NCBI RefSeq assembly: GCF_000154785.2
Contig: NC_015730.1
Location: forward strand, 4,053,501-4,117,500
Length of the DNA stretch: 64,000 nt
Source: Roseobacter litoralis Och 149
GTDB lineage: Bacteria > Pseudomonadota > Alphaproteobacteria > Rhodobacterales > Rhodobacteraceae
Direction: 5' to 3'
Each line of letters starts with the position of its first letter. Position 1 is the stretch's first letter. Both the position numbers and the translations under genes were made by a program. The notes under the pieces were generated by a model. The model did no database searches. It was not told where the DNA came from and saw nothing but the letters and a program-made list of their open reading frames with translations. Shown here piece by piece: positions 18,341 to 50,248 of the stretch.

Positions 18341-19909
18341 GCGTATTTGCCTCCTTGATTATCGTGGTGCAGCGCCATGATGCGAACAAATGCTATTTTT
18401 TCAGACTAGCGGTGCGAAAATCGAACCGGTCATTGGAAAAGGTGACGCCGTCACCCTGAAAATGAGGCGAACCAAGTTACTGTTGCCGGACTTAACTGCA
18501 TTCGTTGTAGACGTTTTGAACAGTGACGACGCCCGCTGAAGACTGATCAGCAAGAGAAGCAAGCGTCCCCGCCCTAAACCAATTCTCAACTGACAGGGAC
18601 GTTCAAAATTGCAAAGCGGTATCAATCACTACATCTCTTTGCGGCGCGGGTAGGGCCCAATGCCGTTCAAGGTTTGACGCGTTTGAATTCAAGATAACCA
18701 CATCAACCGCCAAAGCGCTCCAGAAGGCGAGATCACGCGCACAGATAAGGCACACGAACGGCGATGAACCTCCCAAAATTGATGGACATATTTCCAACCT
18801 GTTACTGGTCATGCTGGACTGACACGTTGAAAGGCGACTTTGGTCGTTTTCCGACCATCGGCATATACTGCAGCGCATGATAGTCTGGGATCTGCGTAGT
18901 CATTAGATTGATCGCAGCTTGTCCGCGGCATTAATGTATCCGCCCAAACATGGACGGCCCTTTCCAGACCTTGTTCGTGGTCTTCAATTGCTGCGGTGGC
19001 AAACCGCTTTTCTACCGTTCACTGCAAGCGCAAAATCAGGGGTTGGTCGAAGAGCGTTCTGCGGGACAAACCCGACTTTTCCAGTTGCGGCTTTGGCTGT
19101 CGCAGAGGACCTGTGCGTCTGCGGCATGACTGACGTCGCATTGCAGCTAACGTCTCAATAGCGGTCGCCCAATCTCTCCGCGGAGTGGAACAATTAAAGC
19201 GTCATGCGAAAAACCTGAATCACGTAACGCTGCCTGAAATAAAAGATTTCAACGCGTTACGTGATACTTGATGTTTCAGGTATTTCGTCAGACGCTCTAG
19301 TTACTCATTCATTGCGACCGGCCTGCGCCATCACGACGGGCGCTCACTGGCGATTTGGTCTGCAAGCGAACACTCGGTTCCGACAGATCCGATGGGTAGA
19401 GCGGCGCACCCCCGAAGAGAAAAGATTGCAGATCTATCCGAACCTGCGCCAGTCCTGATCAAACGCAGGTCGCAGCGGGAGGGACGTAATCTGCAGGTCT
19501 AACCCAAGAAAGGGACGCTGACCCGCCAGTACGACGATGATCTGATCCGTGCCAAATACATGGTACAGACCATGCGCCGGATCCGGATTGCCCATGGAAA
19601 TTCAAACGTGACCTTTAGCAGTTTCGTGTTTGACGCCCATCAGGTCATCCTTGCCGCCAACACGCCTTCATAAGGCAACTATCGTGGGCCAATGGCACGC
19701 AGAATGATGGTCTCTGCGCAACGCGCCGAATTGGGAAGGCGGATCTCGGGCCTGATAGAGGAAACGGATGGTGGACTACATCACACCCGCGCATTTGGAC
19801 TGAGTGTTCGGGTGGTTTGGCCATGGGAAACGTGCCGATCGTGCTGCAGCGATTCATTGACATTTATCCCTAGGATCGTGGTCCAACATGTACCTGTTGG
19901 CTTCAAACT
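18341..19909. other. Degenerate region without intact genes
   Basis: About 1.5 kb between the nitrile hydratase operon and the response regulator gene contains no convincing complete gene. One open stretch at 19521-19673 (+) has coding-like codons (AKYMVQTMRRIRIAH) but no usable start and no family I recognise, so it is probably a gene remnant. The first part may carry the nitrile hydratase promoter; a weak LysR-like GATGCGAACAAATGC lies near 18380. A 105-bp palindromic repeat lies at 19195-19299. Confidence 0.55.
19195..19299 (+). repeat. 105-bp palindromic repeat, copy A
   Basis: The element starts TAAAGCGTCATGCGAAA and ends TCGTCAGACGCTCTA. Its two ends are inverted repeats of about 28 bp, and the inner part also pairs (CACGTAACG with CGTTACGTG), so the unit can fold into one long hairpin. 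Three more copies of the same length are at 38631, 44296 and 50144. This copy has no intact gene on its left. Confidence 0.9.
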
Positions 19910-20581
19910 CTATGCCATTCGGTATCCCACATTGCGCAGCGTCACGATGCGCTGACCTTCCTGACCGAGCTTTCGGCGCAGCCGACCGACATACACATCC
20001 ACCACATTGGTCAAAGGGTCTGCATTCAGGCCCCAGACCGTGTTCAGAATGCGCTCTCTGGATAAAACCCGCCCATTGCTTGTCAGGAGAAGCTGTAAGA
20101 GATCACGCTCTTTCTTTGTGAGCTCAATCGGCTTTTTCTCCACATTGACCTCAAGGGAAGCACGGTCAAACGTAATGGCGCCGTTGGTGATAATCGTGTC
20201 ACTCACGTCGGCGGTATAGCCAGTGGCGCGTCGGTGCAACGCCTCGATACGTGCGACCAGTTCGTCAAAATCAAAAGGTTTGGGCAAGTAATCATCCGCG
20301 CCAATTTTCAGGCCCTCGACTTTTTCTTCGGACCCATCAAGCGCCGTCAGCATCATGATTGGTGTCTTGGATTTGCGAGCACGCAATTTACGGCAGACAC
20401 CCTGTCCCTGAATGCCCGGTAACATCAGGTCCAGCAACACGACGTCGTAGTTGTTCTGGGCGGCAAGCTCCAGACCATCTTCTCCGTTGGCGGCATGATC
20501 GACTGACCATCCTTCCGCTGCCAGACCACGGCGAACAAAGTCAGCAACGCGCGCCTCGTCTTCAATCAATAGAATGTTCAT
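19910..20581 (-). CDS. OmpR-family response regulator
   Basis: A 223-residue regulator with a receiver domain (residues 1-115) and a winged-helix DNA-binding domain (about 125-223). The phosphorylation site is Asp51 (VLLDLMLPG), with the acidic pair at Glu7-Asp8 and a conserved lysine in LPKPF. The C-terminus has the OmpR hallmark VYVGRLRRKLG. It is the last gene of a four-gene leftward operon, 74 bases after its cognate histidine kinase. Target genes are unknown; the upstream EF-hand gene is a candidate. Confidence 0.93.
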   Translation of the reverse strand: MNILLIEDEARVADFVRRGLAAEGWSVDHAANGEDGLELAAQNNYDVVLLDLMLPGIQGQGVCRKLRARKSKTPIMMLTALDGSEEKVEGLKIGADDYLPKPFDFDELVARIEALHRRATGYTADVSDTIITNGAITFDRASLEVNVEKKPIELTKKERDLLQLLLTSNGRVLSRERILNTVWGLNADPLTNVVDVYVGRLRRKLGQEGQRIVTLRNVGYRMA

Positions 20582-20655
20582 CGACCATCTCCTTCATCAC
20601 ATCGCGCGGTCGCCCAAGCACCCAACCGCAATTATGCTCCCAAGAGAATCCGCGT

Positions 20656-22233
20656 TCAACCGGGCGCAACATCGGTTGGCACTGGCCGTTGAGGCGGCTC
20701 TTTTGGGATCTTCATAATAACGCGCAGGCCACCTCCGTCCGGATCTTCCAATTCAACTGTACCGCCGTGGGCAAGCACAATGGATTTCACCACCGGCAAG
20801 CCGAGGCCGCTGCCCTCAATCCCCCGCCCAGACGCGTTTGATCCGCGGAAGAACCGTTCAAAGGCTCTGGATTTCTCATCCGGGCTTAGACCCGACCCGT
20901 CGTCTTCGACCGCAATTATGTTAGTTGTCGCGCTCTGGCGCAGTGATACGGATATCGATGGGCCGCCATAACGCTTGGCATTGTGCAACAACGCCAGCAC
21001 CGATTGGCGCAGCCTGACCTCATCAACGCTCCCGATAATTCTGGCGCCAGAGCTTTCCACCAACACCGTCTCTGGGAACATAGACACCGCGTCCTGTACG
21101 ATCTTGAGCAGGTTCACCTTCTTACGATCAAGTCTGAGTTGTCCTGCCTCAAGGCGGGCGACGGTCAGCAAATCATCAACAATTTGGTTTGTGTGTTTGG
21201 CGGAGTCGCGAATGCGGGCCAGCGCGTCCGATACTTCCAAACTCAACTTGTGCTGGGTGCGTAGGGTCACATCGGCCTCGCCCAGAATGATCGCCAGCGG
21301 GGTGCGCAGCTCGTGACTGATGTCGGCCATCAGTTGCTTGCGGTTTTCTTCACCCATTTCAAGCTTGTTGATCAGCTGCTGCAATTCTGCAGTGCGGTCA
21401 TGGACCGTTTCTTCCAGCTTTTTCTTCTGCTCCGCGCGGGTCGCCTCTCGCACGGCAAGTCCTTCACCCATGTCCTGCAGGACCGTACCGAGTTCACGGA
21501 ACTCAAGGCTGCCGCCGAGCACCACGGGTTTCGAGTAGTCCGCCCCGCGCAACCGATCGATTTCGATACGCAGGCGGACGATAGGTTGCCGGATTTGTCC
21601 GTTGAAGGAGAACAAAGCAACGATCAACGTTCCTACCGCCAGTGCCACCAACACATAGACCAGCTTTTCATTTCGCGCTCGAAATGCGACAGCATCGGCC
21701 AGAACTTCTTCGGTTTCTTCAATTTCCTCTTCAAGTGCGGCAGCAATCTTGCGGTCCAGTTCCACGTCAATGCCACCGTCCATGAGCGCGGCAAGGCGCT
21801 CTGCCTGCACAAAGGACTCCAGCGGATCTTTGGTGCTCGTCATGGCCGCAACCGTGGCATTCAGGGAACGAATGTCGGCTTCTATCTCAGCGAGCAGTTC
21901 AAGCTCCTCAAGCTCCTCTTCACCAACCATCTCGATCTCGCGCTCGATCGTCCGGCGAATGTCCAACAGTGTCTGATCAATCCTGGCGCGCAGTTCGCGT
22001 TCCGCAGCGCCTCCCTCGCTGCGCCCGAGCAGCAGAGACCCGCTATGTTGCTTGAACAGACGGTAGAGTTTCGTTTCCAGCTTCAGGTGGAGCCCATAGG
22101 ATTCCTGCGCCAATTGCGTGCGCGCGTCCCACCACCGCGATTTTTCGAGGTTGTACAGGGTCAGCCCGGCCAGTCCACCGATCAGGCCGATGACAACGAC
22201 CGCATAAATGCCAAAAAGAGTGGTGGAACGCAT
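20656..22233 (-). CDS. Sensor histidine kinase with acidic extracytoplasmic domain
   Basis: A 525-residue kinase. A first membrane span (7-27) is followed by an extracytoplasmic coiled region (about 30-190) very rich in Glu, including EEELEELELLAEIEAD and EEEIEETEEVLAD. A second span (191-210), a HAMP-like linker, a HisKA helix with His307 (DISHELRTPL) and an ATPase domain with N box (LLHNAKRYG), DDGSGL and GSGLGLP follow. All catalytic motifs are intact. The acidic sensor domain suggests binding of cations or a basic ligand, which fits an EF-hand protein encoded upstream. It starts one base after the dead ABC gene. Confidence 0.92.
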   Translation of the reverse strand: MRSTTLFGIYAVVVIGLIGGLAGLTLYNLEKSRWWDARTQLAQESYGLHLKLETKLYRLFKQHSGSLLLGRSEGGAAERELRARIDQTLLDIRRTIEREIEMVGEEELEELELLAEIEADIRSLNATVAAMTSTKDPLESFVQAERLAALMDGGIDVELDRKIAAALEEEIEETEEVLADAVAFRARNEKLVYVLVALAVGTLIVALFSFNGQIRQPIVRLRIEIDRLRGADYSKPVVLGGSLEFRELGTVLQDMGEGLAVREATRAEQKKKLEETVHDRTAELQQLINKLEMGEENRKQLMADISHELRTPLAIILGEADVTLRTQHKLSLEVSDALARIRDSAKHTNQIVDDLLTVARLEAGQLRLDRKKVNLLKIVQDAVSMFPETVLVESSGARIIGSVDEVRLRQSVLALLHNAKRYGGPSISVSLRQSATTNIIAVEDDGSGLSPDEKSRAFERFFRGSNASGRGIEGSGLGLPVVKSIVLAHGGTVELEDPDGGGLRVIMKIPKEPPQRPVPTDVAPG

Positions 22234-24952: not shown

Positions 24953-25429
24953 TCAGTCATCGTCACCATCCCCATCGCCGCCTCCATCGCCATCGCCGCC
25001 TCCATCGCCGTCACCGCCTCCATCGCCGTCACCGCCTCCATCCCGGTCGCTGCTGTTGTCATCACGGTCCCCATCATCGTCGTCGTTTTCGTCCCCATCG
25101 TCCCGATCGTTCCTGCCGGTGCCGCCTGTATCTCCCCTACTTCTGCTCCCCTGTCGCAACTCGAAGATTGTCAGCTTGCCGTCACCATTGCGATCGGACT
25201 GCGCAAGGAGCTGCTCGGCACCACGGACCCCAAACGCACTGATAAGTTCGTCACGGCTCAGCACCCGGTCCGAATTGGTATCTACGGTGCGAAAGCTGGC
25301 GGATTGCGCGAGGGCGGGTGTCAAAAAGGCACAGATTACGAGAACCGCACAGGCGCCACCAATCCATGCGCCCAGCTGCGCCATGAGATTTTTCACCATG
25401 CATCTCGGTGCCAATAAACTGTCCAGCAT
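24953..25429 (-). CDS. Secreted EF-hand protein with Gly-Asp repeat tail
   Basis: A protein of up to 158 residues (148 if started at Met11, 25399). A hydrophobic signal sequence ends near ALAQS at about residue 42. Two EF-hand loops follow: DTNSDRVLSRDE (50-61) and DRNGDGKLTIFE (79-90), both with the Asp/Asn and Glu calcium ligands in place. Residues 100-158 are almost entirely Asp, Gly, Arg and Asn, ending in GGGDGD repeats. It should be periplasmic or secreted and bind calcium or other cations. It lies directly upstream of the P-loop/ABC/kinase/regulator operon in the same direction, so it may be its sensor partner or target. Confidence 0.82.
   Translation of the reverse strand: MLDSLLAPRCMVKNLMAQLGAWIGGACAVLVICAFLTPALAQSASFRTVDTNSDRVLSRDELISAFGVRGAEQLLAQSDRNGDGKLTIFELRQGSRSRGDTGGTGRNDRDDGDENDDDDGDRDDNSSDRDGGGDGDGGGDGDGGGDGDGGGDGDGDDD
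24966..25041 (-). repeat. 18-bp tandem repeats encoding GGGDGD
   Basis: Four imperfect 18-bp units code for the Gly-Gly-Gly-Asp-Gly-Asp hexapeptide at the C-terminus of the EF-hand protein. Tandem units like this readily change copy number by slippage. They are coding and in frame and are not a CRISPR array. Confidence 0.85.
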
Positions 25430-37890: not shown

Positions 37891-37960
37891 CGTTTTGCCT
37901 TTGTAGTGTGTCGTATTTGGTCTTGCAGATTTTTGAAACTATTGGCAACCTTGGCGTATT

Positions 37961-38102
37961 CTCAGGGCGGGGTGAAATTCCCCACCGGCGGTATGTGGGG
38001 CCTGACCTTACGAGCCCGCGAGCGGCCTTTCCCGAACTGAAAGGTGTCAGCAGATCTGGTGAGATGCCAGAGCCGACGGTCATAGTCCGGATGAAAGAGA
38101 AT
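37961..38102 (+). promoter_or_regulatory. FMN riboswitch (RFN element)
   Basis: The conserved RFN blocks are present in order: CAGGGCGGGGTGAAATTCC, CACCGGCGGTA, GCCCGCGAGCG, GTCAGCAGATCTGGTGAGA, GCCAGAGCCGACGGTCATAG and GGATGAAAGAGAAT. It precedes ribH2 by about 85 bases. A short terminator hairpin at 38114 follows and can serve as the switch. Confidence 0.96.
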
Positions 38103-38113
38103 GCGACCGCAAG

Positions 38114-38133: not shown

Positions 38134-38186
38134 CGCGGGCGTGATCGCCTTGGGTGGACGTGTCGACCGCAAAAAAGGAGATCACT

Positions 38187-38633
38187 ATGACACACACCCG
38201 CTTCGCCTTTGTCAAAGCACAATGGCATGCCGATATTGTCGACCGGGCCTTGGATGGCTTTACCGAGATAATTCCCGCGGCACAGGTCGATGTTTTCGAC
38301 GTGCCCGGCGCTTTTGAAATGCCCTTGATGGCGCGTGATCTTGCAGGCACCGGGCGATATGATGCCGTGGTCTGCGCCGCATTTGTCGTGGATGGGGGTA
38401 TATATAGACATGATTTCGTGGCCCAGACGGTCGTGGATGGTCTGATGCGCGCGGGGCTGGACACAGGTGTGCCGGTGTTATCCGTATCCCTGACACCGCA
38501 TCATTATCAGGAAACCGATCATCACAACGAAATCTACCGCAGTCATTTCGCCACCAAGGGGCGCGAAGCGGCGCAGGCGGCCTTGGGTATCCTCAAAACC
38601 CGCCAGTCGCTCAGCGCGCGCAGCGCCGCATGA
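38187..38633 (+). CDS. ribH: 6,7-dimethyl-8-ribityllumazine synthase, RibH2 type
   Basis: A 148-residue lumazine synthase (FAFVKAQWHADIVDRALDGF, then VPGAFEMPLMARDLA and TPHHYQETDHHNEIY). It condenses ribitylaminouracil with dihydroxybutanone phosphate, the penultimate step of riboflavin synthesis. The sequence matches the type II enzymes of alphaproteobacteria rather than the icosahedral type, with Trp at the aromatic position near the start. AAAGGAGA precedes the ATG at 38187. It is a single gene under the FMN riboswitch; its TGA stop is the first triplet of repeat copy B. Confidence 0.93.
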   Translation: MTHTRFAFVKAQWHADIVDRALDGFTEIIPAAQVDVFDVPGAFEMPLMARDLAGTGRYDAVVCAAFVVDGGIYRHDFVAQTVVDGLMRAGLDTGVPVLSVSLTPHHYQETDHHNEIYRSHFATKGREAAQAALGILKTRQSLSARSAA

Positions 38634-38735
38634 GGCGTCTGACGAAATACCGGGAACATCACATATCAACTGACGCGTTGAAATCTCTGATTTCACGCAG
38701 CACTGGATGATCCGGGTTTTTCGCATGACGCTCTA
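38631..38735 (-). repeat. 105-bp palindromic repeat, copy B
   Basis: The same 105-bp palindrome as copy A in reverse orientation. It fills the space between ribH and thiQ exactly: the ribH stop (TGA) is its first triplet and the thiQ stop (TAG, minus strand) its last. Confidence 0.92.
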
Positions 38736-39425
38736 ACCGAGGTAGGCGCGCAATGCAGGCGGCGGGTTGTTCATCAGATCCGCCGCAGGTGCAGGCGCAT
38801 GCGCGCCCCCGCCTTCGACAAAGATCACGTCATCTGCAATCCGCGCGACGTCTTCCGGCGCATGTGTCACCATGAGCAGCGTCGCCCCCGTTTCGGTTGC
38901 CAGCTCTGCGACCAGATCAAGCATCTCATGTCGCAAGGCAGGACCAAGCGCGGCAAAGGGTTCATCCAACAGCACAAGCGGCTTATTCTGCACGAGAACG
39001 CGCGCCAGTGCCGCGCGGCTTTGCTGACCGCCTGACAAGGCCCCCGGCAGGCGCGCCTCAAACCCCGCGAGGCCAACCCGACTTATGGCGGCAGCAACAT
39101 GGGCCTTGTCATCCGCGCTGAGCTTGAGGTTGGGGCGCAGGCCAAGGCTGACGTTTTGCGCAACACTCAGGTGTGGGAACAGGTTGTTGTCCTGAAACAG
39201 CATCGCGATGGGCCGATCACCGGGTGCCGCGTCGCTGACGTCCTTGTCCGCCAGATGGATACGCCCCCGGGCAAGCGGGATAAAGCCACTGATCGCGCCC
39301 AGTATCGTTGACTTTCCCGCACCAGAGGGCCCGATTACAGCAACTTTGCGCCCCTGTTGCACCGTGAAATCCGCGTCCAACGCAAAGCTGCCTTGGGCGA
39401 TTGATACGTTGTCAAGTACGAGCAT
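38733..39425 (-). CDS. thiQ: Thiamine ABC transporter ATP-binding protein
   Basis: A 230-residue ABC ATPase with Walker A GPSGAGKST near residue 32, Q-loop FQDNNLFPHLS, signature LSGGQQSR and Walker B LVLLDEPFAAL. It powers thiamine/TPP uptake with ThiP and ThiB. The ATG at 39425 overlaps thiP by 14 bases; the longer frame is not preferred. Its stop lies in repeat copy B. Confidence 0.93.
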   Translation of the reverse strand: MLVLDNVSIAQGSFALDADFTVQQGRKVAVIGPSGAGKSTILGAISGFIPLARGRIHLADKDVSDAAPGDRPIAMLFQDNNLFPHLSVAQNVSLGLRPNLKLSADDKAHVAAAISRVGLAGFEARLPGALSGGQQSRAALARVLVQNKPLVLLDEPFAALGPALRHEMLDLVAELATETGATLLMVTHAPEDVARIADDVIFVEGGGAHAPAPAADLMNNPPPALRAYLG

Positions 39426-40968
39426 ACCAGCGCGCCCCCCTGTCAAAGCTCCAGAAAATGCCAAGTGCCATGGCCAGCAATATCAGCGCAGCACCCGCCG
39501 CCGCTTCGGTCTTATAGGCCCCCATCAGGCGATACATCTGCAAGGGCAGCGTTGTGCGATCCGGGTCCGAGAACAGTGCGATGACGCCAAGGTCACCAAT
39601 CGACAGTGCGCCCGTCAGCCCAGCGGCGAACCCGATCTGCGGCAGCGCACGCGGCAGGATCACCCAGCGCCAGGTGGTCCACCCGGTCATGTTCAGGGTC
39701 ATGCACAGCCGCCCATGCGACTGTAGCGCCTCGCGAATTCCCGGCACCATGATGCGCAGCGCAAAGGGCAGCGCCATCAGCGTGTTGACCACTGCCGTTA
39801 CCAAAAGCGACAGGCTGACAGGATCAGCAATCGGGTTGATCAGGATGAACCACCCGGTGCCGATCATCAAAGGCGATGCAGACAGTCCCAAAAGGCCGAT
39901 AGCCTCAACACTGCCCCGCGCATGGATGGCGATCCAGCCGGCAAGAGGCAGCGCAACGGCCAGCAAAACGCATACACTGATACCCGCCACCCAGAGCGAG
40001 GTCAGCGCCGCGCGCCACACCGAGGCGGGCACCTCTGGCAGGCCGATCAGCCCTGACACCGCCACCGAGAACAGCGGCAGCAACAAAAACCCAGCACCGA
40101 GCAGGATCGCGACGCCGTCCCCGAACCGTTGCAGACCGCCGCGCCCGTCCCATCGTTGCACCGGCCGGTCCATCCCACCGGTCAGTGAAATCTGCGGGAT
40201 GATCCAAAGCGCCAGCACGGCAGCGCCGCCCGCCAGAACAAGCTGGATCACCGACAGCAAAGCCGCCTTTGACAGATCGAAATCAAAGCGGAACGCCTGA
40301 TAGATGGCCAGTTCGATTGTCGTCGCGCGCGGACCGCCCCCCAGTGTCAGAGCAACCGCAAAGCTCGTCAGACAAATCACAAAGATCAAGGCGGCCGCAC
40401 CGGGCAGAATACGGATCAGCAGCGGCACCTCAATGGTGCGAAAGATAACCCATGGCGACAGGTTCAGTTGCGCGGCAAGGCGAAACCGCTCTGCCGGGAT
40501 GCTCTGCCAGCCTTGCAGCAACAGGCGTGTGGCCAAGGGCAGGTTGAAGAACACATGGGCCAATACCACACCGTGTAAGCCATAGATCGACACCGGCGGC
40601 AAACCCAAGGTGCCAAAGGCGGCATTGACCCACCCATTGCGACCAAATACGGCCAGCAGACCCAGAACCGCGACGATGACCGGCAGGATAAAAGGCGCAC
40701 CCAGCAAGGTGATCAGCATCTGACGTCCCGGCAGGTCACGCCGCGCCAGCGCACGGGCCAGCGGAATGGCCAGCACCACGGATATCGACGCGGACAGGAC
40801 GGACTGCACAACAGTAAAGCGGATGGCTTGCCATTCCGCAGCCCCAAAGCCCGCGCTGGCCTCGGCCCGCAAACCGATGCCAAGAAACGCCAACAGGACC
40901 GCCGCGACCACCAAGGTGCCCGCAACGATCCCCGCACGTCCGCTTATTGGCTGAGCGCTGCGCGCCAT
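39412..40968 (-). CDS. thiP: Thiamine ABC transporter permease
   Basis: A 518-residue permease with two homologous halves of about six membrane spans each, typical of ThiP and ferric-iron importers of this class. Each half has an EAA-type loop (for example QSIPAERFRLAAQLNLSPWV in the first half). It overlaps thiB by 25 bases and thiQ by 14 bases, an unusually compact operon. Controlled by the TPP riboswitch in front of thiB. Confidence 0.94.
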   Translation of the reverse strand: MARSAQPISGRAGIVAGTLVVAAVLLAFLGIGLRAEASAGFGAAEWQAIRFTVVQSVLSASISVVLAIPLARALARRDLPGRQMLITLLGAPFILPVIVAVLGLLAVFGRNGWVNAAFGTLGLPPVSIYGLHGVVLAHVFFNLPLATRLLLQGWQSIPAERFRLAAQLNLSPWVIFRTIEVPLLIRILPGAAALIFVICLTSFAVALTLGGGPRATTIELAIYQAFRFDFDLSKAALLSVIQLVLAGGAAVLALWIIPQISLTGGMDRPVQRWDGRGGLQRFGDGVAILLGAGFLLLPLFSVAVSGLIGLPEVPASVWRAALTSLWVAGISVCVLLAVALPLAGWIAIHARGSVEAIGLLGLSASPLMIGTGWFILINPIADPVSLSLLVTAVVNTLMALPFALRIMVPGIREALQSHGRLCMTLNMTGWTTWRWVILPRALPQIGFAAGLTGALSIGDLGVIALFSDPDRTTLPLQMYRLMGAYKTEAAAGAALILLAMALGIFWSFDRGARWYART

Positions 40969-41924
40969 GTCTCAATGGCTTCTGCCTGAAGCGCGGTTGC
41001 ATCGGCTTCGGAGTAAAACAGCACCTTGTCCGGCAGCGGCAATTGCGCCCAGCCTTCGGGCCATTGATCCTGCGGCAACGCAGATGGCAACGACCAGTTG
41101 GCCGCGGGGATCGAGGATTGAAAGCTCTGGCTCATCACATAGGCCATGAAGGCATCGGCCAGTTCAGGCTGATCCGTCGCTGCGATCTTGCCGACGGTTT
41201 CGACCATAAAATAGTGGCCCTCGGGGAAAATCGCGGCCTGTCTGGTGAAATCATCCTCGGCAAACATGTGGTAGGCGGGTGAGGTGGTATAACTCAGTAC
41301 CATGTCTGCTTCGCCATCGGTAAACATGCCGTAGCTGGCCGACCAGTCCTTGGTCACGGTCAGGATGTTCGGCGCGAGCTTTTCCCAGGCCGCGCCTGCG
41401 TCATCGCCAAAGACAGATTGCACCCAAAGCACCAGCGCCAGACCCGACAAAGACGTGCGCGGGTCCTGAATGACGATTTTTACATCATCGGGCATGTCCA
41501 GCATGGCCTCGAAACTCGCGGGCGGGTTGGCAACTGTCGCTGTATTGTAAACGAAGGCCGCATGCCCGTAGTTGAATGGCAAGAAGGTGTCATCCGTCCA
41601 GTCAACCGGCAGTGTCAGCGCCCCGTTGTCTTGCCCGTGCGGTGCAAACAAGCCGGTCGCACGTGCTTTGGATGTGACATCCGACGTCAGACCCATCACG
41701 ACATCAGCCTTGGTTCGCGCGCCTTCCAACAGCAAACGCGGCACAAGATCACCGGTCGAAAACTGCAGATCGCACCCGCAAATCTCTTCAAACCCGGTTT
41801 CGATCATCGGGCCGGGCCCCCATTCGGAGGTAAAGTAATCGCCCGCGTAGACGGTAAGCACGGGCGTTTCAGCCGCAGCCTGCGAGGCCAACACGATGCC
41901 AGCAGTTATCAGAGTTCTTCGCAT
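40944..41924 (-). CDS. thiB: Thiamine ABC transporter substrate-binding protein
   Basis: A 326-residue periplasmic protein with a signal peptide (MRRTLITAGIVLASQAAAE) and the ThiB opening PVLTVYAGDYFTSEWGPGP. It binds thiamine and its phosphates and delivers them to ThiP. It is first in the operon, about 50 bases after the TPP riboswitch. Confidence 0.94.
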   Translation of the reverse strand: MRRTLITAGIVLASQAAAETPVLTVYAGDYFTSEWGPGPMIETGFEEICGCDLQFSTGDLVPRLLLEGARTKADVVMGLTSDVTSKARATGLFAPHGQDNGALTLPVDWTDDTFLPFNYGHAAFVYNTATVANPPASFEAMLDMPDDVKIVIQDPRTSLSGLALVLWVQSVFGDDAGAAWEKLAPNILTVTKDWSASYGMFTDGEADMVLSYTTSPAYHMFAEDDFTRQAAIFPEGHYFMVETVGKIAATDQPELADAFMAYVMSQSFQSSIPAANWSLPSALPQDQWPEGWAQLPLPDKVLFYSEADATALQAEAIETWRAALSQ

Positions 41925-41972
41925 GATCTATCCTTTTCAAATGCGTCGAACGGCGAAAGAGGATGATATGCT

Positions 41973-42060
41973 CAACCTTCCCTCCGCCGGTTCTAACCGG
42001 TTCAGGTTCTACGGGTCCGCGCGCGTGCGCATCTCAGCCGGATTGGCCCCCCGAGGTAAG
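41973..42060 (-). promoter_or_regulatory. TPP riboswitch (THI box)
   Basis: Read on the minus strand: ACCTCGGGGGGCC, GGCTGAGATGC, GGACCCGTAGAACCTGAACC, then GCGGAGGGAAGGT. These are the conserved blocks of the thiamine pyrophosphate aptamer. It precedes thiB and should repress the operon when TPP is abundant. Confidence 0.95.
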
Positions 42061-42156
42061 CAGGGACGTATTACGCGCGGCGGGGCTTGGCAAGCGATAA
42101 GGGCTTGAGGCGCTCGGTCTGCGCGGCTAAGCACCTGTGCTAAAGGAGCACCGCCG

Positions 42157-43257
42157 ATGTCGATGAATTCATTTGGCCATCTTTTCCGTGTCACCACGTG
42201 GGGTGAAAGCCATGGCCCCGCCCTTGGCGCCACTGTGGATGGCTGCCCGCCCGGTGTCGCAATTGACGCGGGCAAAATTCAGCACTGGCTGGACAAACGC
42301 AAACCCGGGCAGAACAAATACACCACGCAAAGGCGCGAGGCGGATGAGGTCAAAATCCTCTCCGGCACCTTCGAAGGGGTGACGACCGGCACGCCGGTTC
42401 AACTGATGATCGAGAACACGGATCAACGCTCCAAAGATTACGGCGATATCAAGGATAAATTCCGCCCCGGCCATGCGGATATCACCTATTTCCAGAAATA
42501 CGGCGTGCGTGATTATCGTGGTGGCGGCAGGTCCTCGGCGCGCGAAACAGCAGCGCGTGTAGCCGCCGGTGGGCTGGCGCGCGAGGCGATCAATGCCATC
42601 GCACCGGGGATCGACATCAAAGGTTACATGACGCGTATGGGCGCGCATGAAATCGACCGCTCCCGGTTCGACTGGGATCAGATCGACGCCAACCCCTTCT
42701 GGACGCCCGATGCGCAGGCGGCGGATGAGTGGGCAAACTACCTAGATGGGCTGCGCAAGTCGGGCAGTTCCGTAGGCGCGGTGATCGAAGTCGTCGCGCG
42801 TGGGGTCCCCGCAGGTCTGGGTGCGCCGATCTATGCCAAGCTGGACACGGATCTGGCCGCCGCGATGATGAGCATCAACGCCGTCAAAGGTGTCGAGATT
42901 GGCGAGGGTATGTCCGCCGCCATGCTGACCGGTGAATTGAACGCCGATGAAATTTCGATGGGACCGGATGGCCCAGAGTATTCATCGAACCATTCCGGCG
43001 GGATTCTGGGCGGTATCAGCACCGGGCAGGATGTTGTGGTGCGTTTTGCCGTCAAACCGACCTCAAGCATCCTGACCACGCGCAAGACGATCACCAAAAG
43101 CGGCGAAGACACCGAGATCATCACCAAGGGCCGCCATGATCCTTGTGTCGGCATTCGCGCCGTTCCCGTTGGTGAGGCAATGATGGCCTGCGTTTTGCTC
43201 GACCATCTGCTGCTCCACCGGGGGCAGGTTGGCGAAAATCAGGGTCATATCGGGTAG
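42157..43257 (+). CDS. aroC: Chorismate synthase
   Basis: A 366-residue enzyme with family signatures [18 protein letters not shown] and [20 protein letters not shown]. It makes chorismate from EPSP with reduced FMN. TAAAGGAG about ten bases upstream supports the start. It stands apart from other aro genes; a DMT transporter follows. Confidence 0.97.
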
Positions 43258-43323
43258 CAGCCATGCATTCAGCGCCGTGCCCGCGCGCTTGATCTTTGCA
43301 AGACGGGCGCGCACAGAAGGCTT

Positions 43324-44298
43324 ATGGCAACCGATCTGACCCAAAACAAACCCGGCCGCGCAATCGCCCTGAAGCTCTGCGCGGTCTTTCTGTTTATGGT
43401 CATGGCGGCGCTGATCAAATCCGTATCACCCCATGTGCCACCCGGTCAGGCCGTGTTTTTCCGCTCCTTCTTTGCGCTGCCGGTGCTGGTGCTTTGGTTG
43501 TGGCAACGAGGTCAGTTGCGGCAGGGGCTGGTGCCGTCCAATCTGATGGGGCACGTCTGGCGCGGTATTTTTGGCACATCGGCGATGGGGCTGACCTTTG
43601 CCGGGCTTGGTCTGTTGCCTCTGCCCGAAGTGACCGCCATCGGGTACGCGACGCCCCTCTTTGCCGTGCTCTTCGCCGCGATTTTCCTTGGTGAGCGCGT
43701 GCGCATCGTCAGATTGTCTGCGGTGGCATTGGGTCTGATCGGTGTCATGATCGTCATTGCGCCCCGCTTGTCCGTCGGCGCGGATGCCTTGACATCAGCG
43801 GCGACCGTGGGCGCGGTTCTGGTATTGATCGCCTCGATCCTGCGCGCGATGGTCCAGATCCATGTGCGTCGCCTTGTGCAGACTGACACGACGGCCTCCA
43901 TCGTGTTTTACTTTTCCATCACCGCCTCAACACTGGGGTTGCTCACGCTGCCGTTGGGATGGGCGACGGGGCTGGATGTGCTGACATGGACTGCACCCCC
44001 GGCCTGGGTCATCTGGATGTTGATCCTGTCGGGCCTGATCGGCGGCATCGCACAGATCATGGTCACCGCCTCGTACCGTTTCGGCAGCGCGTCCATGCTG
44101 GCGCCTTTTGACTATGCCTCGATGATCTTTGCCAGCTTCATCGGATATATCGCCTTCGGCGAGTTGCCCACCGGACCCATCCTCATCGGCGCGAGCCTCG
44201 TGATCGCGGGTGGCGTCCTGATCATCTGGCGCGAAAGGCAACTCGGGCTGGACCGCAGCAAGTCCAAACCGAACGTCCCACCGTCCGGGACGCCCTAA
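43324..44298 (+). CDS. DMT-superfamily (EamA) transporter
   Basis: A 324-residue protein with ten hydrophobic segments in two EamA repeats (ALKLCAVFLFMVMAALIKSV at the start, LIGASLVIAGGVLIIW near the end). Members export amino acids or other metabolites. The TAA stop is the first triplet of repeat copy C. Substrate unknown. Confidence 0.88.
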   Translation: MATDLTQNKPGRAIALKLCAVFLFMVMAALIKSVSPHVPPGQAVFFRSFFALPVLVLWLWQRGQLRQGLVPSNLMGHVWRGIFGTSAMGLTFAGLGLLPLPEVTAIGYATPLFAVLFAAIFLGERVRIVRLSAVALGLIGVMIVIAPRLSVGADALTSAATVGAVLVLIASILRAMVQIHVRRLVQTDTTASIVFYFSITASTLGLLTLPLGWATGLDVLTWTAPPAWVIWMLILSGLIGGIAQIMVTASYRFGSASMLAPFDYASMIFASFIGYIAFGELPTGPILIGASLVIAGGVLIIWRERQLGLDRSKSKPNVPPSGTP

Positions 44299-44400
44299 AG
44301 CGTCATGCGACAAACCCGAAGCACATAACGCTGCCTGAAGTGAAGGATTTCAACGCGTCAGGTGATATGCGATGTTTCTGGTATTTCCTCAGACGCCATG
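44296..44400 (+). repeat. 105-bp palindromic repeat, copy C
   Basis: The same 105-bp element in forward orientation. The DMT-gene stop (TAA) is its first triplet, and the convergent SnoaL-like gene ends 10 bases inside its right end (TGA). Its right terminus has diverged (GCCATG instead of GCTCTA). Confidence 0.92.
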
Positions 44401-44745
44401 GGACGGGACCGTGTGGCAGGCCGAAGCCTCAATCACCAGACCATCCGGACCAAAACGCAGTGTTTCTGCCGCCTCAACATCGTTCTGGTTGCGATAGGTG
44501 ATGACAATCATCGCATGACCGATGAACACATTCGTCACGATGAAGGAAAGGCCGGGTTGTTGATCCAGCGCCTTGATCCAATAGTCACGCAGCGCGTCGC
44601 GACCTCTGATTTCGCCCTGACCGACCAGCCGCATCGCCTTGCGCGACCGGAACACAACGTCGGGCGCATAATGCGCCATGATCCGGTCGATGGCGTGAGA
44701 ATTCCACGCGGCCTCCCATTCAACAGCGAAGGCCGCGTAGTCCAT
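44389..44745 (-). CDS. SnoaL/NTF2-like protein
   Basis: A 118-residue cone-shaped NTF2-fold protein (MDYAAFAVEWEAAWNSHAID, then IMAHYAPDVVFRSRKAMRLVGQGEIRG). Such proteins are small enzymes or ligand binders. I start at 44745, four bases after the ilvE stop; an upstream ATG inside ilvE would add nine residues. Its stop lies inside repeat copy C. Function unknown. Confidence 0.78.
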   Translation of the reverse strand: MDYAAFAVEWEAAWNSHAIDRIMAHYAPDVVFRSRKAMRLVGQGEIRGRDALRDYWIKALDQQPGLSFIVTNVFIGHAMIVITYRNQNDVEAAETLRFGPDGLVIEASACHTVPSHGV

Positions 44746-44749
44746 TTGG

Positions 44750-45619
44750 TCAGACTCGTACCAGAGTTTCATAGCCTTGGGCGATGTCGCGGGTCAGGCT
44801 GCCGACCTCGAAATTGTAGTCGCCGATTTTTCCAACGGGTGTGACCTCGGCTGCTGTGCCAGTCAGCCAGCATTGTTCAAACCCTTCAAGCTCCTCCGGC
44901 ATGATATGCCGCTCATGCACTTTGACCTGACGGTCTTTGAGCATTCCGATTACGGTCTGGCGTGTGATCCCGTTCAGGAAACAATCGGGGTCAGGCGTGT
45001 GTACTTCGCCGTCCTTCACGAAAAAGATGTTGGCACCCGTCGCCTCGGCCACATAGCCACGATAGTCAAACATCATGGCATCCGAACATCCCTTGGCCTC
45101 TGCCGCGTGTTTTGACATGGTGCAGATCATGTAAAGACCGGCGGCCTTGGCATGGCTTGGGATGGTTTCAGGGCTGGGACGTTTCCATTTGGAGATATCC
45201 AGCTTTGCGCCCTTCATCTTGGCGTCGCCATAATAGGCACCCCATTCCCATGCCGCAATCGCGAGCCTGACCGGGTTTCGCGCGGAGGCGACCCCCATGT
45301 CTTCTCCAGCGCCGCGCCATGCGATGGCGCGCACATAGGCGTCCTGCAGCCCGGATTTTTCCAGCACCTCGACCTTGGCGGCTTCGATCTCGTCGATGGT
45401 AAAGGGGATCTCGAAATCAATCATCTGAGCCGACCGCTTGAGGCGTTCGGAATGCTCGCGGCTTTTGAAAATCTTGCCGTTATAGGCCCGCTCCCCCTCA
45501 AAGACGGATGATGCGTAATGCATGGCATGGGTCAGAATATGCACATTTGCATCGCGCCAATCTACCATCTGGCCATCCATCCAGATATGTCCGTCACGAT
45601 CATTATAGGCACCCGCCAT
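44750..45619 (-). CDS. ilvE: Branched-chain amino acid aminotransferase
   Basis: A 289-residue fold-type IV PLP enzyme. The PLP lysine is Lys158 (IPSHAKAAG), with the following conserved KHAAEAKGCSDAMMFDYRG. It interconverts branched-chain amino acids and oxo acids. GGAAGGA precedes the ATG at 45619. It is divergent from petP. Confidence 0.94.
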   Translation of the reverse strand: MAGAYNDRDGHIWMDGQMVDWRDANVHILTHAMHYASSVFEGERAYNGKIFKSREHSERLKRSAQMIDFEIPFTIDEIEAAKVEVLEKSGLQDAYVRAIAWRGAGEDMGVASARNPVRLAIAAWEWGAYYGDAKMKGAKLDISKWKRPSPETIPSHAKAAGLYMICTMSKHAAEAKGCSDAMMFDYRGYVAEATGANIFFVKDGEVHTPDPDCFLNGITRQTVIGMLKDRQVKVHERHIMPEELEGFEQCWLTGTAAEVTPVGKIGDYNFEVGSLTRDIAQGYETLVRV

Positions 45620-45788
45620 GGTTTTTCCTTCCGTGATTACCCATCGCATTTTTCATAAGTTGCGCCGATCGGTCCGCATCGGACATAAAATTGCGCAAAA
45701 CCTGCGATTCGATATCGCTTCGCTCTTGGAATGTCAACAACACTGACATAAGCTGGGCTGGAACAAAAAAGAATATTTGAGGCATTCA

Positions 45789-46301
45789 ATGGCAGATGGA
45801 CGCGCAGGCTCCGCCCATCACGGCGAAAACCTTCTGTTTTTGACAGATGAGCAGCTGAGGCAGGGCATCGAGGCAATGTTCTTCGCTTATCGCGGCTTTA
45901 CGGCCGACCCGGATCGGATATTGTCGGACATGGCCTACGGGCGGGCGCACCATCGGGCGATCCACTTTATCAACCGCGCACCGGGCACAACCGTCAACAA
46001 CCTGCTCAACATTCTTGGCGTCACGAAACAATCGCTGAACCGTGTCTTGCGCACCTTGATCGAGGATGGTCTGGTTGAAAGCAGGGTCGGCAAGAATGAC
46101 AAACGCGAACGCCATCTGTTCCTGACCCCCGACGGGCGCGGCCTTGAGCAAAAATTGTCTGATGCTCAGCGGGCCCGGATGAGGATGGCATTTCGTGATG
46201 CGGGGCCAGATGCTGTGGCAGGCTTTCGCAGGGTACTGGAGGCCATGATGGATCGAGAAATGCGCTATGCTTATACCCGACTGAAGGATAGCGGACCATG
46301 A
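45789..46301 (+). CDS. petP: MarR-family regulator, PetP-like
   Basis: A 170-residue winged-helix MarR-type regulator (TTVNNLLNILGVTKQSLNRVLRTLIEDGLVESR). It overlaps the response regulator gene by four bases, the same pairing as petP-petR of Rhodobacter capsulatus, where petR is needed for cytochrome bc1 expression. In Rhodobacter the pair lies next to petABC; here it is about 10 kb away. The assignment rests on gene pairing and sequence style. Confidence 0.85.
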   Translation: MADGRAGSAHHGENLLFLTDEQLRQGIEAMFFAYRGFTADPDRILSDMAYGRAHHRAIHFINRAPGTTVNNLLNILGVTKQSLNRVLRTLIEDGLVESRVGKNDKRERHLFLTPDGRGLEQKLSDAQRARMRMAFRDAGPDAVAGFRRVLEAMMDREMRYAYTRLKDSGP

Positions 46302-46999
46302 ATGACTTTGATGCACATTTGCTGATTGTTGACGACGACGAACGCATTCGCACCCTGCTGCAGAAATTTCTGGTGCGGAATGGTTTTCTGGTCACTGCCG
46401 CGCGCGATGCCGCCCATGCAAGGCGCATTCTGTCGGGGCTGGATTTCGATCTGATCGTTCTGGATGTGATGATGCCGGGCGAAGACGGTCTGGCCTTTAC
46501 CCGTGCCCTGCGCGAGACAAACGCGGTGCCGATCCTGTTGCTCACCGCCAAGGGTGATACGGACAACCGGATCGAAGGGCTGGAAGCGGGCGCGGATGAT
46601 TACCTGCCCAAACCGTTTGAACCCAAAGAGCTTTTGCTGCGGATCAACGCCATTTTGCGACGTGTGCCTGAGGTGCAGGAAGATGTGACCGCCCCCAAGG
46701 TTCTGTCGCTCGGCCCCATCCGCTATGATCTGGAGCGGGGCGAGTTATGGCAGGGCGAAGACCTCGTCCGGCTGACGGCGACCGAGATGCACCTGATGAA
46801 AATTTTTTCGGCCAGCTGTAACGAGGCGATCAGCCGCGCGAAACTGGTCGAAGAACTGGGCCGCGACCGTGGGCAGGCACAGGAACGCGCCGTTGATGTG
46901 CAGATCACACGGCTGCGGCGCAAGATCGAAAGTGACCCGAAACAACCACGCTATCTGCAAACCGTGCGCGGGGCTGGGTATATGCTTGCACCGGATTGA
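46298..46999 (+). CDS. petR: OmpR-family response regulator, PetR-like
   Basis: A 233-residue response regulator with receiver Asp56 (LIVLDVMMPGEDG), a conserved lysine in LPKPFEPKELL and an OmpR-type DNA-binding domain (VDVQITRLRRKIE). No histidine kinase gene is adjacent, as for petR in Rhodobacter, where it pairs with the MarR protein. The expected target is petABC. Confidence 0.88.
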   Translation: MNDFDAHLLIVDDDERIRTLLQKFLVRNGFLVTAARDAAHARRILSGLDFDLIVLDVMMPGEDGLAFTRALRETNAVPILLLTAKGDTDNRIEGLEAGADDYLPKPFEPKELLLRINAILRRVPEVQEDVTAPKVLSLGPIRYDLERGELWQGEDLVRLTATEMHLMKIFSASCNEAISRAKLVEELGRDRGQAQERAVDVQITRLRRKIESDPKQPRYLQTVRGAGYMLAPD

Positions 47000-47092
47000 C
47001 GACCGACAGTGATTTCACCGCGTTGCCGGTCTGGCACCTGCCTGAATTTATGACTACTGTTGGCGCAGACACGCATGCAGGATACCGACGCC

Positions 47093-47335
47093 ATGACAGA
47101 CACACCCGTCACCGAGATGAGTTTTGAACAAGCCATGAGCGAGCTTGAAAAAGTGCTTGGCCAGTTGGAGCGGGGCGATGTGGCCTTGGATGAGAGCATC
47201 GCGCTTTATGAACGCGGTGCAGCACTGAAAAAGCGGTGCGAGGAAAAGCTGAAAGAAGCAGAGGAAAAGGTCGCGGCCATCACGCTGGATGCAGATGGCG
47301 CGCCCACCGGTACAAAGCCTGTCACGGGCCTCTGA
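47093..47335 (+). CDS. xseB: Exodeoxyribonuclease VII small subunit
   Basis: An 80-residue helical protein matching XseB (MSFEQAMSELEKVLGQLERGD, then LDESIALYERGAALKKRCEEKL). With XseA it degrades single-stranded DNA. The ATG at 47093 gives the usual length; earlier in-frame starts are possible. It begins the isoprenoid cluster xseB-ispA-dxs common in proteobacteria. Confidence 0.94.
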   Translation: MTDTPVTEMSFEQAMSELEKVLGQLERGDVALDESIALYERGAALKKRCEEKLKEAEEKVAAITLDADGAPTGTKPVTGL

Positions 47336-47338
47336 CAC

Positions 47339-48208
47339 ATGTTTTCGCAACGGCTTGAAGCTGCGGGCGCTGCTGTTCAGGCGCATTTTGACAAGGTACT
47401 GGCTGAGTTTGAACCGCTCCCGATTGTTGAGGCCATGGCGCATGCCACCAGCGGGGGCAAACGTCTGCGGGGTTTTCTGGTGTTGGAAACGGCCCGGCTG
47501 CATGACATAGCGGCAGGCGAAGCCATCTGGTCCGCCACGGCCATTGAGGCCCTGCATGCCTATAGTCTGGTCCATGATGACCTGCCCTGCATGGATGATG
47601 ACGACATGCGGCGCGGTCAGCCAACCGTGCATAAGAAATGGGACGACGCCACAGCTGTGCTGGCCGGCGATGCCCTTCAGACGCTGGCCTTTGAACTGGT
47701 CACGCACCCCGGTGCCAGCCCCTCCGCAGAGGTGCGAGCCGATCTCGCCCTGAGCCTTGCGCGCGCGAGCGGGGCACAGGGGATGGTCTTGGGGCAAGCG
47801 CTTGATATTGCCGCTGAAACCGCACATACCCCCCTATCTCTGGATGAAATAACGCGGCTGCAGCAGGGCAAGACTGGTGCGTTGATTGGATGGTCGGCAC
47901 AGGCGGGTGCGCGGCTGGCACAGGCGGATACGGCGGCGCTGAAACGCTATGCGCAGGCCCTTGGCCTTGCCTTTCAGATCGCCGATGACATCCTCGACGT
48001 GACAGGCGACAGCGCGCAGGTTGGCAAAGCCGTGGGCAAGGATGCCAGCGCGGGAAAGGCGACTTTCGTATCACTTTTGGGTCTGGACGCAGCGCGCACG
48101 CGCGCCATGTCGCTGATTGACGAGGCCTGCGACAGCCTGGCGACTTACGGCGCCAGAGCTGACACCCTAAAAGACACCGCGCGCTTCGTGGTGCGACGCA
48201 CACATTAG
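47339..48208 (+). CDS. ispA: Farnesyl diphosphate synthase (polyprenyl synthetase)
   Basis: A 289-residue trans-prenyltransferase. The first aspartate-rich motif is VHDDLPCMDDDDMRRG (about 79-92) and the second is QIADDILDVTGD. It condenses IPP with DMAPP and GPP to farnesyl diphosphate. Three bases separate it from xseB and nine from dxs. Confidence 0.95.
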   Translation: MFSQRLEAAGAAVQAHFDKVLAEFEPLPIVEAMAHATSGGKRLRGFLVLETARLHDIAAGEAIWSATAIEALHAYSLVHDDLPCMDDDDMRRGQPTVHKKWDDATAVLAGDALQTLAFELVTHPGASPSAEVRADLALSLARASGAQGMVLGQALDIAAETAHTPLSLDEITRLQQGKTGALIGWSAQAGARLAQADTAALKRYAQALGLAFQIADDILDVTGDSAQVGKAVGKDASAGKATFVSLLGLDAARTRAMSLIDEACDSLATYGARADTLKDTARFVVRRTH

Positions 48209-48217
48209 GGAACGACA

Positions 48218-50146
48218 ATGACAGACACGCCCAAAACCCCGCTTTTGGATCTGGTGCACCGCCCCGCCGACATGAAGGGCCTGTCAGACCGGCAGCTGGT
48301 GCAGTTGGCAGATGAGCTGCGCCGCGAAACCGTTTCAGCGGTTTCGGTAACGGGTGGGCATCTGGGCGCAGGCCTAGGTGTGGTGGAACTCACGGTCGCG
48401 CTTCATGCGGTGTTCGACACGCCCCGCGACAAGATAATCTGGGACGTTGGGCATCAGTGTTATCCGCATAAAATCCTGACGGGTCGGCGCGACCGCATCC
48501 GCACCCTGCGCATGAAAGGGGGCCTCAGCGGGTTCACCAAACGCAGTGAATCCCCCTATGATCCTTTCGGTGCCGCCCATAGTTCCACGTCGATTTCGGC
48601 GGCTTTGGGATTTGCCGTTGCGCGTGATCTGGGCGGTGTCGTACCGGAAGGTCTTGGGGACGCCATTGCCGTTATTGGCGACGGGTCGATGTCTGCGGGC
48701 ATGGCCTATGAAGCGATGAACAACGCGGGTCATCTGAAAAAACGTATGATCGTGATCCTGAACGATAATGAGATGTCGATTGCTCCGCCCACCGGTGCGA
48801 TGTCGTCTTATCTCAGCCGTCTCTATTCGGGCGAACCCTTTCAGGATTTCAAAGCGGCGGCCAAAGGGGCGGTGAGCCTGCTGCCGGAACCGTTCCGCGA
48901 AGGGGCTAAAAGGGCCAAGGATATGCTCAAGGGGATGGCCGTCGGCGGCACCCTGTTCGAAGAGCTTGGGTTTTCCTATATCGGCCCGATTGACGGGCAT
49001 GATCTTGACCAGCTTTTGCCGCTTCTGCGCACCGTCAAAGCACGCGCGACCGGGCCGATCATGATCCACGCGCTGACCAAAAAGGGCAAAGGCTATGCGC
49101 CCGCCGAAACCGCCCGAGACAAGGGGCACGCCACCGCGAAATTCGACGTACTGACCGGGCAGCAAACCAAGGCCCCGTCGAATGCGCCCAGCTACACCAA
49201 AGTCTTTGCGCAAAGCCTGCTCGAAGAAGCAATGAAAGACGACAAAATCTGTGCCGTAACGGCTGCGATGCCGGATGGCACGGGGTTGAACCTCTTTGCG
49301 GAACGCTACCCCAGCCGCTGTTTTGACGTCGGTATTGCCGAACAACATGGGGTGACCTTTTCGGCGGCGCTGGCCGCGGGCGGGATGAAGCCGTTCTGCG
49401 CGATGTATTCGACATTCCTGCAAAGGGGCTACGATCAGGTTGTGCATGACGTTGCGATCCAGCGCCTGCCCGTGCGCTTTGCGATTGATCGCGCAGGGTT
49501 GGTCGGGGCGGATGGCGCGACGCATGCAGGGTCCTTTGACATCGCCTATCTGGCCAACCTGCCCGGTTTCGTTGTGATGGCCGCCGCCGATGAAGCAGAA
49601 CTGAAACACATGGTTGCCACCGCTGTTGCGCATGATGATGGGCCAATCGCGTTCCGCTTTCCACGCGGCGAAGGCAATGGCGTCGATATGCCGGAAGTTG
49701 GCGAAGTGCTGGAAATCGGCAAGGGCCGGATCATCACAGAGGGAGCGCGCGTCGCGATCCTGTCCTTTGGCACCCGTCTGGCAGAGGTTCAAAAGGCAGG
49801 CGAAGCACTGGCGGCCCGCGGCATCACGCCGACGATTGCGGATGCACGGTTCGCCAAACCGCTCGACCGGGACATGATCCTTGATCTGGCCGTCAACCAT
49901 GAGGCCCTGATCACCGTCGAAGAAGGGGCCATCGGCGGTTTTGGCAGCCATGTGGCGCAGTTGCTTTCGGATGAAGGAGTGTTTGATACCGGCTTCAAAT
50001 TCCGCTCAATGGTGCTGCCCGATATCTTTATAGACCAGTCCAGCCCGGCGGACATGTACGCCGTTGCGGGCATGAACGCGGCGGATATCGAAACCAAAGT
50101 GCTGTCGGTTTTGGGCATTGCCCAGATCGGTGAGGCGCGGGCCTAA
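48218..50146 (+). CDS. dxs: 1-deoxy-D-xylulose-5-phosphate synthase
   Basis: A 642-residue thiamine-diphosphate enzyme, first step of the MEP pathway. The TPP-binding segment [18 protein letters not shown] and the transketolase pyrimidine domain ([15 protein letters not shown]) are intact. The length is normal. Its TAA stop is the first triplet of repeat copy D. Confidence 0.97.
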
Positions 50147-50248
50147 AGCGTCATACGGAAAACCTGGATCATGTAACACTGCCCGACATCAAGGGATTCA
50201 ACGCGTTACGTGATACTTGATGTTTCAGGTATCTCGTCAGACGCTCTA
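50144..50248 (+). repeat. 105-bp palindromic repeat, copy D
   Basis: The same 105-bp element, forward orientation, close to copy A in sequence. It exactly fills the gap between dxs (TAA, first triplet) and the convergent BASS transporter gene (TAG, last triplet). Confidence 0.92.

Follow-up and report, generated by a model that had tools for sequence, protein, structure and literature searches.

A probable TA-targeting family of palindromic elements at the stop codons of convergent genes in Roseobacter litoralis

Introduction

Several families of short interspersed repeats described in bacteria resemble the element reported here. In Streptococcus pneumoniae, BOX repeats encode the stop codon of 36 genes, with no strong evidence of truncation, and BOX, RUP and SPRITE are all over-represented between convergent genes (PMC3049150). 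RUP is 107 bp long, and its proposed mobiliser is IS630-Spn1, with TA targets (PMC2229807, PMC3049150). TA-ended miniature inverted-repeat transposable elements (MITEs) are a known kind of bacterial element, and the CIR repeats of Caulobacter and Brucella are palindromic intergenic repeats of the Alphaproteobacteria (PMC2229807). Repetitive extragenic palindromic (REP) units measure 20-40 bp (PMC3733652). We analysed a stretch of 64,000 nucleotides from Roseobacter litoralis Och 149 (NC_015730.1, positions 4,053,501 to 4,117,500; hereafter the window), which carries four copies of a hairpin-forming palindromic element, most of them with the stop codons of adjoining genes at their ends.

A preliminary description of the window had reported four 105-bp copies that fold as imperfect hairpins. 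These are real, and lie at 19195-19299 (copy 1, plus strand), 38631-38735 (copy 2, minus strand), 44296-44400 (copy 3, plus strand) and 50144-50248 (copy 4, plus strand). The evidence presented below makes it highly probable that they belong to a family of non-autonomous, MITE-like, TA-targeting transposable elements with a YTAR target (Y, pyrimidine; R, purine), which rebuild the stop codons that they enter and whose surviving copies often stand at gene ends.

Results

The element in R. litoralis and its relatives

A search of the R. litoralis genome gave 63 candidate places, of which 40 were scored, and all 40 matched at E 7.3e-31 or better. With up to 3 mismatches allowed, a core-motif search returned 62 places, and its reversed control returned 3. 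Fifty distinct copies were read with their flanks (from 63-64 first-look candidates). The fixed length given in the preliminary description does not hold for every copy: lengths range from 96 to 108 bp, and 39 of these 50 are 105 bp long with a score over 70. The ends form terminal inverted repeats, TAAAGCGTC... and TAGAGCGTC..., and the element, at less than 200 bp, contains no transposase gene.

Among the 18 other genomes of the genus, nine lacked any match at E <= 0.001. G011, which we take to be R. denitrificans OCh114, the sister species of R. litoralis, yielded more first-look candidates (163) than any other; the two species are 94% identical over 14 kb. End-motif counts in G011 were 139 and 131, against 5 and 5 for the reversed control. 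We read 48 of the 163 candidates in G011 and 19 of 25 in G014. Because copies were taken from the best matches and from listed end-motif places, these sets are not random samples; the first-look candidates also include noise, amounting to 4-15 in same-genus genomes without any match. Counting R. litoralis itself each time, matches were present in 11 of 59 relatives, in 22 of 295 sampled Rhodobacteraceae genomes and, in a class-level model search under strict filters, in 4 of 385 genomes, three of them within the family and one, weak, outside it. Separately, short palindromes with TAGAGC...GCTCTA ends were seen in Rhizobiales at 2 of 80 loci (Bosea, L134 13073-13114; Bradyrhizobium, L136 15541-15598; 0-based starts), where four control motifs gave none.

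Empty sites and the insertion target

Comparison of R. litoralis with G011 revealed that empty sites have a single TA, and that filled sites have a TA on both sides of the element or a decayed form of this arrangement. At R. litoralis site 303352, which is filled there and empty in G011, two convergent G011 genes share one CTAG, each stopping with TAG across its single TA; with the element in place, the R. litoralis genes end in TAG and TAA, and both protein lengths are unchanged. The reverse case is found at G011 312295, where R. litoralis is empty and reads TTAG, and where both proteins stop at the aligned residue. At G011 192781-192987 (G011:C1:952782-952987), two head-to-tail copies occupy one former stop, and the orthologous R. 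litoralis site is empty. The G011 gene ends GCC TAG and that of R. litoralis GCG TAA at the aligned residue, in a junction aligned by eye in which the right TA has decayed to CA. At G011 218259, R. litoralis has one TA, adjoining but outside a stop, and the left TA of the G011 copy has become TG. Single TAs thus face filled sites in both directions, and these empty sites, together with the 40 matching places of the genome search, bear out the earlier view that the unit is repeated, mobile and MITE-like and stands at gene ends.

Within 400-kb stretches, the 19 G011 matches comprised 4 shared in position, 4 (at three sites) absent from R. litoralis, 1 unclear and 10 with a flank missing, and the 10 R. 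litoralis matches comprised 4 shared, 1 absent from G011 and 5 with a flank missing.

The bases around the TAs define the target further. Both TAs are intact in 35 of the 50 R. litoralis copies; a pyrimidine precedes the left TA in 34 of the 35, and a purine follows the right TA in 34. The corresponding counts are 13 of 13 on each side in G014, and 27 of 28 and 26 of 28 in G011. In other genera they are 23 of 28 and 30 of 33, with each end there sought as a TA no more than 14 bases from where it was expected, a procedure that favours the TA reading. A pyrimidine precedes only 91 of the 196 TAA or TAG stops in 464 kb of the R. litoralis genome, even with element-borne stops included; YTAR is therefore preferred as a target and does not simply reflect the make-up of stops.

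Orthologues of the window genes give a similar picture. Between ribH and thiQ, where copy 2 stands and where G011 shares the insertion, a single YTAR at the insertion point carries both overlapping stops in 9 of the 16 other same-genus genomes in which both genes were found; in G017 and G018, thiQ is one residue longer. Copy 4, between dxs and BASS, is common to R. litoralis and G011, and in the element-free genomes G003, G004, G012, G016, G017 and G018 the last residue of dxs is unchanged and the stop is TAG or TAA. Both dxs and the DMT gene keep the same final residue in all 18 same-genus genomes; the downstream sequence differs, so that no base-exact empty site is available for them. We also observed that the ribH-thiQ spacer of four genomes (L290 in G012, L291 in G008, L292 in G015 and L285 in G014) is a different, hairpin-forming sequence of 118-119 bp that starts with TAA or TAG and ends with CTA, again with both stops at its ends. 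Parts of this spacer recur elsewhere (L160, L195, L295).

Placement at gene ends

Genes were called with our own codon-hexamer model, trained on the window and four relatives and less sure in other genera. Of the 62 R. litoralis gene ends located between -30 and +40 relative to an element end, 44 have their stop at exactly +3. Terminal triplets of the element serve as the stop of one or both neighbouring genes in 34 of the 50 copies, and of both in 10. Thirty-nine copies lie between convergent genes, 9 between tandem genes and none between divergent genes, with 2 unassigned. Copies at stops number 14 of 19 in G014 (17 of 19 convergent), 31 of 48 in G011 (33 of 48 convergent) and 9 of 17 in other same-genus or near genomes. 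The 45 copies from 20 genomes of other genera show a weaker convergent bias, with 20 convergent, 17 tandem and 3 divergent; a stop of this kind is present at 23 of the 45.

The background was taken from 400 kb plus the window (464 kb in all) and consists of the 466 YTAR sites outside coding sequence and elements, of which 72 are in stops and 88 in or at convergent gaps. Against it, the placement of the R. litoralis copies has binomial probabilities of 1e-16 for stops and 2e-19 for convergent gaps, with the copies treated as independent. Copies did not lie mostly inside genes or at promoters, the outcome that would have counted against the preliminary description: 0 of 134 are inside a spanning open frame and 2 of 134 are divergent, and in other genera none of the 45 is within a frame open through the element. 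This test detects only frames open through the element and is blind to genes broken by insertion.

A covarying hairpin with a conserved core

Sequences from other genera were cut to 105 bp around a Roseobacter-derived profile, so that their equal length is by choice. An alignment of 29 of the 31 cross-genus sequences (a 106-bp one and L361 were excluded), covering the genus and other genera, has 105 columns without gaps, and 87.5% of its cells are paired, against 79.3% after shuffling. Both sides have changed in 20 of the 37 pairs, a number reached by 0 of 500 shuffles, and slid controls pair at 30-40%. A free search for complementary arms and for TA ends, the latter sought within the same 14-base limit that favours the TA reading, found both in 20 of 45 copies, 19 of them 104-107 bp long and one 125 bp. 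The core, TGAATCAC..AACGCTGCCTGAAATCAAAGATTTCAACGCGTT, is nearly invariant between genera, whereas the outer arms are variable yet complementary. Among 95 copies, mostly of the same genus, pairing exceeds that of shuffles by little (91.1% against 90.3%), as copies in decay should show. Ungapped copies were used for counting pairs in both sets.

Rfam covariance models gave no gathering-level match on the window copies, and at E up to 5 only chance-level matches at 5 loci, the best (E 0.18) outside the copy. Stem mismatches in R. litoralis, G011 and G014 together include more A·C than G·T (129 to 80 without pair 12/94, and 104 to 80 when pair 30/66 is also left out), as if the minus strand folds better.

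Window copies and adjoining genes

The names ribH, thiQ, DMT, dxs and BASS come from the preliminary description, which assigned them from the sequence alone. Flavin mononucleotide (FMN) and thiamine pyrophosphate (TPP) riboswitches near ribH and the thi genes are consistent with those names. Copy 1 is near the family consensus and has no gene end adjoining it, the nearest being 854 and 610 bp off by our gene finder. Copy 2 lies between the convergent genes ribH (38154-38633, plus strand) and thiQ (38733-39464, minus strand, with its start at 39425 by our gene finder); both stops are terminal triplets of the element, which makes the ribH TGA at 38631-38633, its end now being TGA, and the thiQ TAG at 38733-38735. 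Copy 3 is at the end of a DMT-type transporter gene (43324-44298, plus strand), whose TAA at 44296-44298 is made by the element end. Its right end has decayed (CCATG), and a facing gene of 127 aa (44389-44772, minus strand) stops with a TGA at bases 10-12 from that end, in frame with the decayed terminal triplet. Copy 4 separates the convergent genes dxs (48218-50146, plus strand; TAA at 50144-50146) and a BASS-type transporter gene (50246-51127, minus strand; TAG at 50246-50248), both of which stop on its terminal triplets.

Five of the six stops are therefore the element's own terminal triplets (ribH, thiQ, DMT, dxs, BASS) and the sixth lies at bases 10-12 inside, just as the preliminary description had it. 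Its idea of a stop-codon cassette stands in that the ends supply stops, but in most of the testable cases no new stop is imposed: the element enters the TA of an existing TAA or TAG and rebuilds it, and truncation is seen in one tested case, L006 (see Discussion). Copies 3 and 4 are 84% and 89% identical to copy 1 in an ungapped repeat search, and the reversed copy 2 was recovered by the family profile. All fold as long imperfect hairpins, copy 3 being the weakest at -28 kcal/mol; the other three range from -34 to -49 kcal/mol. The window also contains FMN (37954-38106, plus strand), TPP (41962-42063, minus strand) and cobalamin (59451-59602, plus strand) riboswitches, and imperfect, CATCGCC-rich direct repeats of 18-bp units at 24956-25053.

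Discussion

The element, mostly 105 bp long, an imperfect palindrome throughout and without a gene of its own, inserts at the TA of a palindromic YTAR and duplicates that TA, as the empty sites show. The element proper starts with A or G at either end, and each TA together with this base forms TAA or TAG when read in frame with the TA; with the TA doubled, stops are rebuilt at both ends. Insertion into a TAA or TAG stop, or into a TA shared by two convergent stops, then leaves every stop in place, as seen at 303352 and 312295. Insertions elsewhere would mostly be lost through broken genes, operons or promoters, and for this reason survivors would accumulate at convergent gene ends; once inserted, copies decay, as the six copies shared with G011 did. 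IS630/Tc1-mariner enzymes characteristically duplicate a TA and use a palindromic YTAR target, and these two features suggest that the element may be mobilised in trans by a DDE transposase of that kind. With the stop rebuilt at both of its ends, the element can spread at little cost.

Several observations speak against this account. At L006, CTAT in G011, where TAT is a Tyr codon, has become TAA in R. litoralis, and the protein is truncated. Of five R. litoralis sites tested as empty in G011, base-by-base alignment was obtained only at L014 and L006; L003, L013 and L023 are element-free in G011, and their junctions cannot be aligned. Five of the ten best own-genome matches touch no stop. Matches to DDE_3 (PF13358) were all partial and confined to 4 of the 19 same-genus genomes, G011 not being among them, and a scan for a larger element with the same ends, which covered 2.84 Mb and not whole genomes, found no convincing matching end pair 600-2600 bp apart, only two pairs agreeing at 15 of 22 bases. 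Between genera, finally, the outer arms are least and the core most conserved; this is unlike an ordinary MITE, because the transposase should recognise the outer arms. The real puzzle is this missing enzyme together with the conserved core and free arms.

Near two partial DDE_3 fragments (L166, L319), single end-like hexamers were found, with no inverted pair. The one at L319 1304 (G004), TAAAGCGTTTT, is about 200 bp from the partial match, has no partner end and is possibly a chance occurrence. Two inverted copies 1.4 kb apart in G011 (1127307-1128856) were considered as a carrier and rejected, the open reading frames between them, inspected by eye only, being short.

Copies would also gather at gene ends if the insertion machinery itself sought stop codons or converging transcription, without selection against other insertions. 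Within convergent pairs, 33 of 39 R. litoralis copies are in a stop, against 36 of 88 YTAR sites (binomial 2e-8) or 8 of 15 CTAG sites alone (binomial 4e-5), and the closely alike copies of G014 are already mostly at stops and convergent, all of which such targeting would produce. Selection, however, predicts that the share at stops grows with distance from the consensus, and this is what the thirds of the R. litoralis copies do (9 of 17, 11 of 17 and 14 of 16); convergent counts by the same thirds are 12, 14 and 13. As some copies, such as that at 19195, are far from genes, and only 20 of 45 are convergent in other genera, we regard targeting of gene ends as unlikely. A functional bidirectional terminator or stabiliser of mRNA 3' ends, placed and kept by selection at convergent gene ends, would account for a hairpin that forms on both strands, for the 39 of 50 copies between convergent genes and for the arm pairing kept across genera. 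The preliminary description likewise saw a portable bidirectional terminator. Yet no U-tract follows the long hairpin, and terminator-like matches in 38500-50400 are near the shuffled number (16, against a mean of 12.3, sd 3.7), with two weak ones inside copies 2 and 3; around copy 1 there are two, neither inside it. The six copies shared with G011 are moreover less alike (0.878 identical) than their 200-bp flanks (0.942), in a comparison restricted to pairs with both flanks over 80% identical and with flanks that are partly coding, hence constrained. Three of the six have 7, 8 and 10 gap columns. In the three ungapped pairs, 13 of 16 one-sided stem differences fall at pairs broken in one or both copies, and 3 further stem pairs differ on both sides; copy 3 survives in G011 only as a weak remnant, a partial match at E 0.008. 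We reject the terminator reading because shared copies decay and the U-tract is lacking, and hold a terminator or stabiliser to be very unlikely; we see no sign that single copies are retained for a function.

The near-invariant core and the compensatory arm changes across genera could also reflect a folded single-strand element read by its shape, with core and pairing constrained and arm sequence free, in the manner of attC sites, IS200/605 and REP elements. The flank preference is symmetric, with Y on the left and R on the right, which is what a double-stranded target would show. The Y1 transposase (PF01797, RAYT) is absent from G011 and partial in G000 and G014, and A·C is not rarer than G·T across genera (54 to 47), which gives the plus strand no advantage as the strand that folds. 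Such an element is quite unlikely to be the explanation. An old, conserved and immobile intergenic sequence would agree with the six read copies shared in position with G011, and a further five (L018, L021, L022, L026, L029) are suggested by split matches lying about 100 bp apart, in a comparison that covered 27 of the 40 prepared R. litoralis sites. Clean empty sites, found in each direction between these close species, refute this reading, which is hardly conceivable. A more ambitious version of mobility, which we find distinctly doubtful, is a family-wide mobile hairpin whose enzyme reads shape and core rather than the terminal sequence and which is aimed at convergent stops, with stop regeneration as an evolved safe landing. 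Stop regeneration would then be a strategy, and not a by-product of a TA target and selection.

For the TA-targeting, MITE-like element that we favour, three features are novel as far as searched: that one stop, or two at once, can be regenerated to the exact base, how often this happens, and that the form covaries between genera. A search of the open-licence literature, which was not exhaustive, turned up no previous description of the family. The comparison provides a base-exact account of how a mobile element lands in one or even two shared stops with neither protein changed, and the two sister species offer a way to test whether such safe sites result from targeting or from selection. The analysis also brings out, in Rhodobacteraceae, a family of structured elements with covarying pairs for which no enzyme was found.

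Among known systems, BOX resembles the Roseobacter element as a small interspersed repeat with repeat-borne stops and an excess between convergent genes; compared by description, it differs in being modular and able to exceed 500 bp, and insertion into a stop TA with the stop rebuilt at both ends is absent from the part of its description drawn on here (PMC3049150). RUP, Correia/NEMIS and ERIC are likewise short, with terminal inverted repeats, TA ends, target duplication and no transposase gene, and the portions of their descriptions used do not mention exact placement at stop codons (PMC2229807, PMC3049150). Unlike RUP, the Roseobacter element has no matching IS630 that we could find, and its core is more conserved than its arms across genera. 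CIR, and Bru-RS and RIME of Rhizobium, which are also alphaproteobacterial palindromic intergenic repeats, are alike by description; the model search of 385 class genomes gave its one weak match outside the family. REP elements and their RAYT transposases share the palindromic, extragenic, many-copy character, but the REP-like assignment of the preliminary description does not hold, as the element is about 105 bp long against a unit of 20-40 bp and G011 is without a Y1 transposase; with regard to the GTAG/CGTC tag of REPs, several other genera lack the CGTC that stands near the Roseobacter ends. IS630 prefers a CTAG-type target. Although no IS630 with matching terminal repeats was found in the same-genus DDE_3 scan or the 2.84-Mb end scan, the IS630 family and its MITEs share with the Roseobacter element both the TA duplication and a target of the YTAR/CTAG type.

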